A stretch of DNA of 64,000 nt from an uncultured Flavobacteriaceae bacterium (GCA_943842245.1 CALTAJ010000001.1:620001-684000), one strand, 5' to 3'; shown: positions 40,597-44,546, counted from the stretch's first letter. Notes: generated from the letters alone by a model not told the origin. A program made the numbers and translations.

Positions 40597-40637
40597 TTCA
40601 ATAAAAAAGGCTCCTAAAAGGAGCTTTTTTTATTGAA
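40597..40637. terminator. Bidirectional intrinsic terminator (groEL / metal cassette)
   Basis: GGCTCC-TAAA-AGGAGC is a strong GC stem flanked by A and T runs that themselves pair (TTCAATAAAAAA ... TTTTTTTATTGAA), so the hairpin works in both directions. On the plus strand it ends groESL. On the minus strand it ends the metal cassette, overlapping the last codons of the HMA gene (stop at 40630-40632). Confidence 0.9.
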
Positions 40638-40968
40638 TTGTTCGCCTATAAATACAGCAGATTGGAAGTTCATTATAAATCTCATCAGGTGCTTTAGCTA
40701 ATGCAGTATCGTGACCTACTTGAGCTATAGAGTTTTGTATTTTTAATAAAGTGGCTCTATTTGGGTTATATACTATTGAAATTAAGTTTGAAGGGATATC
40801 CCAATTCGCAGCTTTTACACCCTTTACAGTAAGTGCTGATTTCTCAATGCGTTTTTTACACATCTCACAATTTCCAGTGACTTCAAAGCTTACTTTTTCT
40901 GTATTTTTATTTTGTGCTACAAGAACAAAAGGACTTATCAGCAAATAAATTATAAATACTTTTTTCAT
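40630..40968 (-). CDS. Exported heavy-metal-associated (HMA) domain protein
   Basis: A 112-residue protein with a signal peptide ending in LVAQN and an HMA fold of about 70 residues. The metal motif is GNCEMC (Cys34, Cys37). A second cysteine pair lies at the C-terminus (LPICCIYRR, Cys104-105), outside the HMA core. Members of this group are periplasmic binders of soft metals such as copper or mercury. It is the last gene of a four-gene minus-strand unit and starts 18 bases after the TonB-dependent receptor stop, so it may take metal from that receptor (inference). Confidence 0.85.
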   Translation of the reverse strand: MKKVFIIYLLISPFVLVAQNKNTEKVSFEVTGNCEMCKKRIEKSALTVKGVKAANWDIPSNLISIVYNPNRATLLKIQNSIAQVGHDTALAKAPDEIYNELPICCIYRRTIQ

Positions 40969-40986
40969 TTTTTTCTTTAAATATAG

Positions 40987-43215
40987 TTATAAATTCCAAC
41001 GAAGGCCAGCATAAACCATTCTCCCAAAGATTGGCGCGTAAATTTGTGCAGTATCAAAATTAATACCAAAAGGATCCTCTACTCCAATAATTGGTGATAG
41101 TTGTTTGTAATTCCCTAGATTCTCAATTCCAGCGTATAGCTCAAATTTACTACTAAAAGCGCGGGTCAATTGACTATTCCATAGACTGTAAGCTGGGCTA
41201 TAACTCCCAGCGGGATCTCTTTGGTTACTTACCAAACGTTGTTTACCTAGTGCATGACAAGTCAAATCCCATCGCCATTGAGCTTGTTTTGCGTTTCGTT
41301 TAGATTCCCAACCAAAATTGGCGAAAAATCGATTTTGTGCCTGTAAAGGTAGTTGTAAAAAACCTGAATCATAAGTAGTTTTAACATTATAATTTTTATA
41401 AGCAAAACGCAGACTCATCGATTGTGAAAGATTATAATCAATTGATAGTTGAAAACTATTTGCTCGACTTAAACCTTCCAAATTATAAAACAATATTTGA
41501 CCTTCCGATTCCCAATCCGCTACCACTTGATCAGTAAAATTGGTGATATAATAGTCTACGGTAATGTCTCCCCCACTTCCTAAAAGATTAAAGATCTGAC
41601 GTATACTTGCCCCATAATTCCATGCTTTTTCTGGATTTAAGCCATAAATAGAACCTCCATTTTTAAGAATATTAATCTGACGATTAGTTCCAAAAAGCGT
41701 CTGGTTTTCTGCAAAAATATTAGCTGCTTTTCGACCACTTCCTAACGAAAAGCGAATGATGGTATTTTCCTGAGGTAGATACCTCAGATGCAAACGTGGG
41801 GTAACAAATGTTCCCAAGCGGTTGTGAATATCCAGACGGACTCCGGCTACTAGAGTAAAGTTTTCCAAATTGTCGTAACTGTACTCTAAGAAACTTCCTA
41901 AAGAGCTATCACTCCTGTTGAAGTAAAAAGTATCCACTGTTTCCAGATAACGATCATAGGAAAAGTTAAGCCCAGCTTTGAATTTATTTTTTGTATTTCC
42001 AATTATAGAATTATATAAAAAATTTGTGTATAGGCTTTGGTGATCGATATCATAAACTCTAAAACCGTAATATGCTTCTTGTTTATGTTGACTGTAAGCT
42101 GATTGAAAACCAAAACTTCTAAAAGAAAATTCTGGAAATACATACCCTATTTTTAAAGAGGCATCTATTCGATTGGTACTAATTTCACTTCCCCAAAGAC
42201 GGTTTTGCCCTCTATCATTTTCATTATTAAATTCTAAAGCTCCAACTTGCTTTTGGTCTTGCATCAGACGAATTGTTCCAAAACCAACCCAGCCTTTTTC
42301 ACTATTAATATATTGCCAACGATTTAAAAAATTTATTTGTTTAGTCAGAGGAACGTCTAAAAAATCATCTCCATTTCCGTCGATCTTTTCAGTTCGCTGA
42401 TTTCCATGCACAAACATACCGCTACTCCATTTATCATTAATTTTCCAATTTCCCTGTAAATTAGCTTCCTGTCTTCCATTAGCAGAAGTAAAAAAGTTGA
42501 AAAAAAAAGGTACATCAGAAAAAGGTTTTTTAATTTCAGTATTAATTTGACCTGCGATACTTTCGAAACCATTAACCACACTTCCTGTTCCTTTAGTAAT
42601 CTGTATACTCTCTATCCAGGTTCCTGGTGTGAATGATAATCCGTAAGCCTGAGAAGCTCCTCGTACCATTGGAATATTTTCCTCAGTAATTAATAAGTAG
42701 GGACTTGAGAGTCCCAACATGCGGATTTGTTTTGTTCCAGTTAACGCATCTGAAAAGTTAACATCTATAGAAGGATTGGTTTCAAAACTTTCCGAAAGAT
42801 TACAACAGGCTGCTTTTAATAATTCATCACTGTTGACATATATAATATTTTGGGCTTCAAAATAAGATTTTTGTATAGCTTTTCGCCTTTTCGTTAGGGT
42901 CACCTCATCTAAAGATTCTGAATCGCTTTCGTCTAAAAAATGAATTAATAATCGATTCTCCTTGATGCTGAGCGTATCTGATTTAAAACCAATATAACTC
43001 ATCACGAGAAGTTCTTCAGTGCCAAGATAAGGGAGAGAAAATTTTCCCTCTTCATCTGTAATTGTTCCAATTTGAGTGTTTAACCAAAAAACATTTGCTC
43101 CAATCAGTGGAATAGTTTCTCTGGCTTCTTTGGCAAGTACTCTTCCGTCAAGATTCTCTTGGGCAAAAGGTTTTAGACTGAAGAAAATTAATAATAATAG
43201 AATGTGTTTTTTCAT
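40987..43215 (-). CDS. TonB-dependent receptor with a Cys-Cys plug motif, probably for a metal
   Basis: A 742-residue outer-membrane receptor. A signal peptide (FSLKPFAQ) is followed by a carboxypeptidase-like regulatory domain (LDGRVLAKEARETIPLIGANV, to about 95). The plug domain contains AACCNLSESFETNPS, with adjacent Cys137-138. The beta-barrel ends in MVYAGLRWNL, a typical C-terminal strand with an aromatic near the end. The Cys pair together with neighbours rich in CxxC/CC motifs suggests import or sensing of a soft metal or metal-chelate instead of a sugar. No SusD-like lipoprotein is present, which also argues against a glycan system. Confidence 0.9.
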   Translation of the reverse strand: MKKHILLLLIFFSLKPFAQENLDGRVLAKEARETIPLIGANVFWLNTQIGTITDEEGKFSLPYLGTEELLVMSYIGFKSDTLSIKENRLLIHFLDESDSESLDEVTLTKRRKAIQKSYFEAQNIIYVNSDELLKAACCNLSESFETNPSIDVNFSDALTGTKQIRMLGLSSPYLLITEENIPMVRGASQAYGLSFTPGTWIESIQITKGTGSVVNGFESIAGQINTEIKKPFSDVPFFFNFFTSANGRQEANLQGNWKINDKWSSGMFVHGNQRTEKIDGNGDDFLDVPLTKQINFLNRWQYINSEKGWVGFGTIRLMQDQKQVGALEFNNENDRGQNRLWGSEISTNRIDASLKIGYVFPEFSFRSFGFQSAYSQHKQEAYYGFRVYDIDHQSLYTNFLYNSIIGNTKNKFKAGLNFSYDRYLETVDTFYFNRSDSSLGSFLEYSYDNLENFTLVAGVRLDIHNRLGTFVTPRLHLRYLPQENTIIRFSLGSGRKAANIFAENQTLFGTNRQINILKNGGSIYGLNPEKAWNYGASIRQIFNLLGSGGDITVDYYITNFTDQVVADWESEGQILFYNLEGLSRANSFQLSIDYNLSQSMSLRFAYKNYNVKTTYDSGFLQLPLQAQNRFFANFGWESKRNAKQAQWRWDLTCHALGKQRLVSNQRDPAGSYSPAYSLWNSQLTRAFSSKFELYAGIENLGNYKQLSPIIGVEDPFGINFDTAQIYAPIFGRMVYAGLRWNL

Positions 43216-43265
43216 TACGTATTTTTTATGTGTTAAGGACCCCTATTCTTAAAAATGAGGTGGAC

Positions 43266-43685
43266 TTAGCCATAAAAAATAAAAGACTGCTGTGTCAAAA
43301 AAAGTTTATCTGATTTTGGAGGCGGAGGGTTCCAGTTTGGAAACACTTTTGAAATTAAAATGAGTTTTGAATCAAAATAATAAATTGGAAAAAGAATTGA
43401 TGCATTAATAGCAATTACTTTTTGAAAAGATTCTAAATTAACTTTTTGATATTGTTGATTTTGAAAAAGTAAAGTATTGTCTTTACAGCATGATTTTTTT
43501 GAAAATTCTGTTTTAAACGGGATTTTAGAATCCTGAGGAGATTCCATTTCGCATTTAGCAGAAATAAAAGCCAAAGACACCTCTGCTATATGATTTCCAC
43601 AATAATGAACATTTAATGCGTAGCTCACCTTTGTCCCAAGAATTAGGATGGCTAGTGTGAAACATACTAACTGTTTTATTTTCAT
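43266..43685 (-). CDS. HYC_CC_PP-family small exported protein
   Basis: A 139-residue protein matching the HYC_CC_PP pattern: signal peptide, then HYCGNH (27-32), a further Cys45, SCCKD (65-69) and a C-terminal proline run (NPPPPK). The molecular function is not established to my knowledge. The invariant His and Cys pairs look like a soft-metal site, and members occur beside TonB-dependent receptors and HMA proteins. Here it lies 50 bases upstream of the receptor and 17 bases after the HMA-MauE gene in the same operon. Confidence 0.82.
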   Translation of the reverse strand: MKIKQLVCFTLAILILGTKVSYALNVHYCGNHIAEVSLAFISAKCEMESPQDSKIPFKTEFSKKSCCKDNTLLFQNQQYQKVNLESFQKVIAINASILFPIYYFDSKLILISKVFPNWNPPPPKSDKLFLTQQSFIFYG

Positions 43686-43702
43686 TTTTTAAAGTTACTA
43701 TT

Positions 43703-44413
43703 TTAATTAATATATCCCACTAGAAGAATAATGGCCATAGTGAGCATAATTCCATTTTCAATTAAAGTAGCTTCTGTCATTGGAAGTTTTAGTGCCGTAC
43801 CTAAACAAGCACAATCAATTTGAGATTTTTGAGTCAAAACTCGAAGTACTCCAAAAGTAGTAATAGATAAAATTATTAAAGTAAATAAAATAATTATGGG
43901 CAAATACCATTCCATTAAAAAGGCAATACCCAAAACTGTCTCAAGAAAAGGGTATAATTTAGCATATCTAGGGATTTTTTTTGCTAAGGGGTCATAGCGC
44001 TTAAATGAATTTGGAAAACCTTCATAATCTAAAAATTTAAAAAAACTAAATACAATAAAAAACATCCCCATAAATATTTGCATTTTTCTTTCCATATTAG
44101 CATTTAGTTGATAGGATAAAAAAAGTGTCCCCACAATTAGATAGATAAAAATTAAAAACAGTGGAGTCAATTGTTTTAATTTTGAGGTTTTAATTCTTTT
44201 TGAGTTAGAAACAGATTTTTGAGCAGAATATTTTGAGCCCAAAAGCATCGATATTTCTCTACTAGTAAGTTGATTTTTAGATTGAATTTCAGCAATACCT
44301 GTTTCCAAAGACACTTGAACTGAAAGCACATCTTCAAGGGTATTTATCTTATCTGAAACAGTCTTTTGACAACTCATACAGGTCATCCCAGAAATGTGAA
44401 ATATATTTTCCAT
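43703..44413 (-). CDS. HMA domain fused to a MauE/DoxX-type membrane domain
   Basis: A 236-residue protein. Residues 1-65 are an HMA domain with GMTCMSC (Cys12, Cys15), and a basic linker follows. Four membrane segments (about 85-235) resemble the MauE/DoxX-like redox-associated family, with a DCACLG motif (about residues 197-202) in the second half. The layout suggests metal binding on the cytosolic side coupled to a membrane redox or transport step. It is the first gene of the four-gene metal cassette. Its exact reaction is unknown. Confidence 0.83.
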   Translation of the reverse strand: MENIFHISGMTCMSCQKTVSDKINTLEDVLSVQVSLETGIAEIQSKNQLTSREISMLLGSKYSAQKSVSNSKRIKTSKLKQLTPLFLIFIYLIVGTLFLSYQLNANMERKMQIFMGMFFIVFSFFKFLDYEGFPNSFKRYDPLAKKIPRYAKLYPFLETVLGIAFLMEWYLPIIILFTLIILSITTFGVLRVLTQKSQIDCACLGTALKLPMTEATLIENGIMLTMAIILLVGYIN

Positions 44414-44511
44414 AGAATGAATTAGGTGTAAATTTAATACTATCTAACCATATTAGGAATTCAAATAAAGATAATTCAGTTTCAATATATAAATGGCTCT
44501 TTAAATTTAAC

Positions 44512-44539
44512 TTTGTAAGTTAGAGATTGCTTACTTTTG
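44512..44539 (+). promoter_or_regulatory. Candidate promoter for the GAF protein / purH unit
   Basis: TACTTTTG (44532-44539) exactly fits TAnnTTTG, with TTTG (44512-44515) 16 bases before it as a possible -33 element. The ATG follows seven bases after, which would imply an almost leaderless transcript. An alternative -7 is TAACTTTG at 44508-44515, giving a normal leader. Confidence 0.35.
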
Positions 44540-44546
44540 GTTGATT

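Follow-up and report, generated by a model that had tools for sequence, protein, structure and literature searches.

A 64,000-nucleotide stretch of DNA from an uncultured Flavobacteriaceae bacterium (the window; GCA_943842245.1 CALTAJ010000001.1:620001-684000) encodes a four-gene cassette that most likely constitutes an undescribed system for the uptake and handling of copper, of which the membrane protein HMA-MauE is the most novel part. Copper acquisition in Gram-negative bacteria is little known, and we consider it probable that Bacteroidota use the cassette to acquire and handle copper, by way of a TonB-dependent copper receptor and a periplasmic HMA chaperone. Its four co-directional open reading frames lie on the minus strand and encode HMA-MauE, an HYC_CC_PP protein (HYC), a TonB-dependent receptor and an exported HMA protein, with intergenic gaps of 17, 50 and 18 bases in that order. 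The layout, gaps, cysteine motifs and terminator described in an original prediction, made from this DNA alone, were all confirmed (Table 1). In the open-access literature searched we found no description of the cassette, of MauE proteins in connection with copper, or of Bacteroidota copper receptors of this type.

The cassette is nearly universal in the window's genus, with one group carrying HMA-MauE elsewhere. In three congeners HMA-MauE stands alone beside purH/GAF genes (L088:6370-7086, L082:480-1196, L081:1299-2018), with no HYC, receptor or HMA gene at that site; the set can therefore be lost piecewise. Among 80 named Flavobacteriaceae loci, an HMA gene lies beside the receptor in 77 and an HYC gene in 67 (within 1.5 kb, same strand), the gap between receptor and HMA having a median of 21 bases. 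HMA-MauE proper is the least constant member, present at 27 of the 80 loci in a clustered count that leaves out six long neighbour matches, which are P-type ATPases, and in many relatives the operon lacks it. Many of the Flavobacteriaceae loci have common flanks, with purH and a GAF protein gene on one side and groEL on the other.

The association extends across the phylum, as the original prediction required. We compared 45 receptors that carry the vicinal cysteine pair of the plug (AACC), drawn from many Bacteroidota families and with differing flanks, with the 14 nearest receptors that lack it. HYC accompanied 32 of the AACC receptors, an HMA neighbour or fusion 27 and a small CC protein 41, so that 43 of the 45 had at least one of these, against none of the 14 controls by the same distance and strand criteria (Fisher p = 1.5e-6 for HYC, 3.7e-5 for HMA and 2.3e-10 for the small CC protein, values that ignore shared ancestry). 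These data bear on the proposal that the genes are coincidental neighbours held by conserved synteny alone, with no common function. The purH-groEL site is indeed conserved in much of the family, but the association is also seen in other families, where the flanks differ and fusions occur, and is absent from the control receptors, which leaves this explanation scarcely credible.

In some species the HMA domain is fused to the receptor N terminus, as one domain in L051 and two in L052 and L053, and HMA-receptor fusions also occur in six phylum loci. The fusions are direct evidence that the receptor and the HMA protein work together, and they locate the HMA domain in the periplasm. The hand-off from receptor to exported HMA protein, as originally proposed, thus gains support from the fusions; the proposed order of the relay does not. 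Sister receptors lack AACC, but most carry a C-x-V-C pair that lies about 28 residues deeper in the plug (G000:C2:732606-734699, which is L090; L058, L245-L259). Genes beside them, among them one for a DtxR/MntR-type regulator and one for a ZIP-like transporter (the latter in L057/L058), suggest another metal.

Both cysteines of AACC are invariant in 19 receptors from across the order, at identities down to 29%. The pair is also present in all 150 aligned receptors, the members of this alignment having been chosen by the CC motif; unselected evidence comes from the 19-receptor set and from phylum matches taken without reference to the motif, among which the pair is found in the 45 with the highest scores and is lacking in 14 with lower scores. 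Beyond the pair, as far as the C terminus, a further cysteine is absent from 127 of 149 receptors, and no other cysteine, or methionine except the start residue, is conserved at 80% in the 150 aligned receptors. When about 85,000 species genomes were scanned for ACC[ND]L[SA][EG][SC]F, at least 592 stretches matched; because every listed one encodes a relative of the cassette receptor, the motif marks the receptor family.

The partner proteins keep their cysteines as well. Homologues of the exported HMA protein retain C34 in 94 of 96 and C37 in 95 of 96, and the two residues of its C-terminal pair in 94/95 and 94/96. In HYC homologues, C29, C45 and C66-C67 are kept in 91-92 of 92 (C66 and C67 each in 92), and HMA-MauE homologues retain C12 in 39 of 40, C15 in 40 of 40 and both CxC cysteines in 39 of 40. 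The pairs highlighted by the original prediction are thus conserved at 97-100% in the three partners. Together, cysteine-pair conservation and the phylum-wide recurrence of the gene association make the cassette more than a chance grouping. Neither outcome named as refuting the original prediction was observed: the four families occur together far more often than chance would allow, and their cysteine pairs are conserved. Two HMA-like partners (L062:7046-7393 and L066:10438-10791) have one cysteine in the metal loop (GVTCSTDL and GIKCKNGV, respectively), a degenerate site; the adjoining receptors keep ACC.

Copper is our best guess for the metal, because independent copper genes neighbour the receptor loci. 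A CPC-motif copper-type P1B-ATPase is encoded near the receptor in seven loci, adjacent at 3-22 bases in six and 482 bases away in the seventh; two of these ATPases, the members tested, score 592 and 583 bits against TIGR01511 (cut-off 397). Csp1-like copper storage proteins follow in three loci, with matches below the model cut-off. In L237 the receptor and CusA are 70 bases apart, and HYC genes adjoin CusA in L067, L069 and L080, with HMA-MauE also in L067. These neighbours narrow the soft-metal system first envisaged to copper, and copper binding and transport by the cassette proteins are predicted from this genomic context. Small AraC-type regulators with an N-terminal MVCxxC, encoded beside the receptor or HMA-MauE (L225:4418-4984, L232:7277-7846, L067:8920-9507), are candidate copper sensors.

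Given that HMA matches include the MerP and MerTP models, we also considered mercury or another soft metal as the cargo of a set acting like a TonB-fed mer system. HMA-MauE resembles MerTP mercury importers in joining an HMA domain to membrane helices and a CxC-type loop. However, its MerTP score is 43.3 bits against a cut-off of 180, its membrane part is MauE and not MerT, and its transmembrane helices hold no cysteine, so that the MerT-type pair of the first helix is missing. The cassette neighbours are copper genes, and the genome has a separate MerT-HMA/ArsR/cation-efflux island. With scores, motifs and neighbours all contrary, we rejected this very unlikely reading. The island, 11-13 kb past the window end (G000:C1 ~694800-697300; L086:4815-7257), encodes an ArsR-type regulator, a MerT-HMA fusion with a transmembrane cysteine pair and a cation-efflux protein, and lies a few kb from integrase-like and ParB-like genes.

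Several points weigh against copper acquisition as the function of the cassette. HMA, cysteine and methionine sites also bind Ag, Hg, Zn and Cd, and inherited synteny at the purH-groEL site could explain part of the co-occurrence. In L257, a receptor without AACC nonetheless has a CPC P-type ATPase and a small Cys-rich protein as neighbours, an exception to the contrast drawn above. The AACC segment is modelled at a predicted local distance difference test score (pLDDT) below 50 (residues 99-159), so the position of the pair is taken from the alignment. Finally, CopA, CusA and Csp are detoxification genes, and the operon may answer copper excess and not shortage. In that event the receptor, HMA and HYC proteins would buffer or sense envelope copper, toxic copper would induce the operon and the N-terminal HMA would be a signalling domain, not a carrier. 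The presence of HYC and HMA-MauE with CusA and a Cys-pair AraC-type regulator in L067, and of such regulators touching the receptor gene in L225 and L232, is consistent with a response to excess. However, TonB-dependent receptors are known only as importers, simple detoxification would not call for one, and no efflux gene occurs in the operon of the window. We therefore regard a copper-excess module as unlikely and continue to favour copper acquisition and handling.

The receptor has the plug domain and barrel fold of TonB-dependent transporters. Its model (mean pLDDT 82) adopts the standard fold, and its closest Foldseek matches are PirA, Cir and BtuB (E down to 7.5e-24), with XusA and OprC lower; in XusA, the stretch that immediately precedes the first plug helix aligns with the AACC segment. 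It shares this fold with the copper receptors OprC/NosA (OprC structures at rank 33, E 1.6e-20), copper being the cargo proposed here. In contrast to these, cassette receptors do not conserve the CxxxM-HxM site, and the NCBIfam models that the receptor matches at E 1 or better include none for copper receptors. We know of no HMA, HYC or HMA-MauE partners in the described OprC system. The receptor also has an N-terminal CarbopepD_reg domain and plug in common with SusC/RagA, but scores 55.2 bits against TIGR04056 (cut-off 368.25). No SusD-like gene adjoins it, as originally remarked, although this is ordinary for metal receptors and not distinctive.

Two further copper receptors invite comparison. 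The CrtA (BfrG) copper transporters of Bordetella and Pseudomonas, which occur mostly in beta- and gamma-Proteobacteria, have no conserved cysteine or methionine, and a PepSY_TM gene is usually found downstream (PMC12914433). Like them, the present receptor is TonB-dependent, operon-encoded and copper-linked; unlike them, cassette receptors are marked by the vicinal cysteine pair and by HMA/HYC neighbours. Downstream of the receptor in the window are the HMA gene and then groEL, and the recurring neighbour clusters were inspected visually. In Bizionia argentinensis, another member of the Flavobacteriaceae, copper uptake has been proposed for a TonB-dependent, OprC-like receptor with CxxxM-HxM, the other receptors of that genome being without OprC similarity; we did not find the present cassette described in that paper (PMC11213822).

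We next turn to HMA-MauE and the P-type ATPases, for which genome content was assessed by family profile searches. No P-type ATPase (PF00122) was found in the window's genome or in seven congeners, one of them 98% complete, whereas 14 of 14 control genomes had matches. Similarly, TIGR01525 detected no P1B-ATPase in 36 of 37 genus genomes (G000-G036, including the window's), one of the 36 congeners having a match below cut-off. Absence of a P-type ATPase, first taken as a trait of the cassette, is thus true of the window's whole genus but not of the cassette at large, since seven related loci carry one. Each of eight congeners tested has one heme-copper oxidase, and copper is therefore needed. 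CusA-type pumps score above cut-off in some congeners; none did so in the window's genome, which is ~90% complete.

In a set of 251 Flavobacteriaceae genomes, most of them the single representative of a genus, 51 of 163 (31%) with a strong P1B-ATPase carry HMA-MauE, versus 58 of 88 (66%) without (odds ratio 0.24, p 1.6e-7; the strong/weak threshold was placed at a score gap once the data had been seen, with no correction for ancestry). P1B-ATPase and HMA-MauE also occupy a common operon slot before the receptor. Because HMA-MauE is found more often in genomes that lack a strong P1B-ATPase and shares the ATPase slot, these data suggest that it can take over P1B function and may stand in for a copper exporter. 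This reverses, or at least weakens, the earlier proposal that metal would finally enter the cell through HMA-MauE: presence at 27/80 loci with enrichment where strong P1B-ATPases are missing fits exporter replacement at least as well as import. Tentatively, HMA-MauE could transport Cu(I) without an ATPase, substituting for CopA-type P1B-ATPases and, in the window's genus, completing with the receptor, HMA and HYC a two-membrane copper route via vicinal cysteine pairs.

HMA-MauE might alternatively be a thiol redox relay that keeps exposed periplasmic cysteine pairs reduced, and not a copper carrier. MauE/DoxX are known as redox-associated membrane proteins, the CC pairs of the three partners in the periplasm would oxidize readily, and the CxC and CxxC of HMA-MauE are nearly invariant. 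However, its homologue alignment has conserved methionines (M111, M115, M212, M223, M226) in or near membrane helices, which together with the enrichment in genomes without strong P1B-ATPases point to copper. The distribution of positive residues further suggests that the HMA domain and the CxC both face the cytosol, and we consider a redox role improbable. The HMA-MauE model (pLDDT 89) comprises an HMA fold and transmembrane helices; Foldseek returned HMA domains and a weak partial ATP7B match, and no solved MauE-like fold.

These data allow us to propose a mechanism for copper acquisition and handling by the cassette. The TonB-dependent receptor would bring copper, free or chelated, across the outer membrane, and the vicinal cysteine pair at the start of the plug would receive Cu(I) at the periplasmic face. 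Acting as a periplasmic chaperone, the exported HMA protein, receptor-fused in some species, would then accept Cu(I), with HYC as a further putative periplasmic copper-binding protein. At the inner membrane, HMA-MauE may exchange Cu(I) with the cytosolic side, where the pattern of gene presence favours a P1B-ATPase stand-in over an importer.

Domain calls were made with Pfam and NCBIfam profiles at curated cut-offs. HMA-MauE scores 38.7 bits against PF00403 (cut-off 24.8) and 67 bits against PF07291 (cut-off 27), which assigns it to the MauE family, and the exported HMA protein scores 28.2 bits against PF00403. The receptor plug scores 32.9 bits against PF07715 (cut-off 23.9). HYC scores 67.4 bits against NF047658 (cut-off 28) and has the conserved HYC and CC motifs of that family. 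A palindrome search in 160-base upstream regions of 80 loci gave none above shuffled controls, just A/T-rich words, and sigma-70-type matches upstream of the cassette were no commoner than in shuffles.

Table 1. Features of the cassette, in window coordinates
Feature	Position	Strand	Basis
HMA-MauE membrane protein, 236 aa	43703..44413	-	N-terminal HMA with CxxC; MauE-type membrane domain with CxC
CxxC of HMA-MauE HMA domain, residues 12-15, GMTCMSC	44369..44380	-	homologue conservation
CxC of HMA-MauE MauE part, residues 201-203, DCACLG	43805..43813	-	homologue conservation
HYC_CC_PP small exported Cys protein, 139 aa, HYC and SCC motifs	43266..43685	-	NF047658
Vicinal Cys pair of HYC protein, residues 66-67	43485..43490	-	homologue conservation
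TonB-dependent receptor, 742 aa: CarbopepD_reg_2, plug, barrel	40987..43215	-	PF13715 and PF07715 above cut-off
Vicinal Cys pair in receptor plug, residues 137-138 (AACC, residues 135-138)	42802..42807	-	alignment
Exported HMA protein, 112 aa, candidate periplasmic metallochaperone	40630..40968	-	PF00403; beside receptor
CxMC metal-binding motif of exported HMA protein, residues 34-37, GNCEMC	40858..40869	-	homologue conservation
C-terminal vicinal Cys pair of exported HMA protein, residues 104-105, LPICC	40654..40659	-	homologue conservation
Terminator-like hairpin, then T's, between cassette and convergent groEL, common to both	40610..40624	-	sequence
Upstream intergenic region, presumed promoter	44414..44540	-	position; no conserved palindrome

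If the receptor is a true copper receptor, it would be a widespread one, with at least 592 motif-bearing loci, in a phylum for which the literature searched yielded no recognised copper receptor of this type. It would bring along a dedicated periplasmic chaperone, which in some cases is part of the receptor itself, and the cassette would be a candidate for copper management without P1B-ATPases in streamlined Flavobacteriaceae that keep a heme-copper oxidase.

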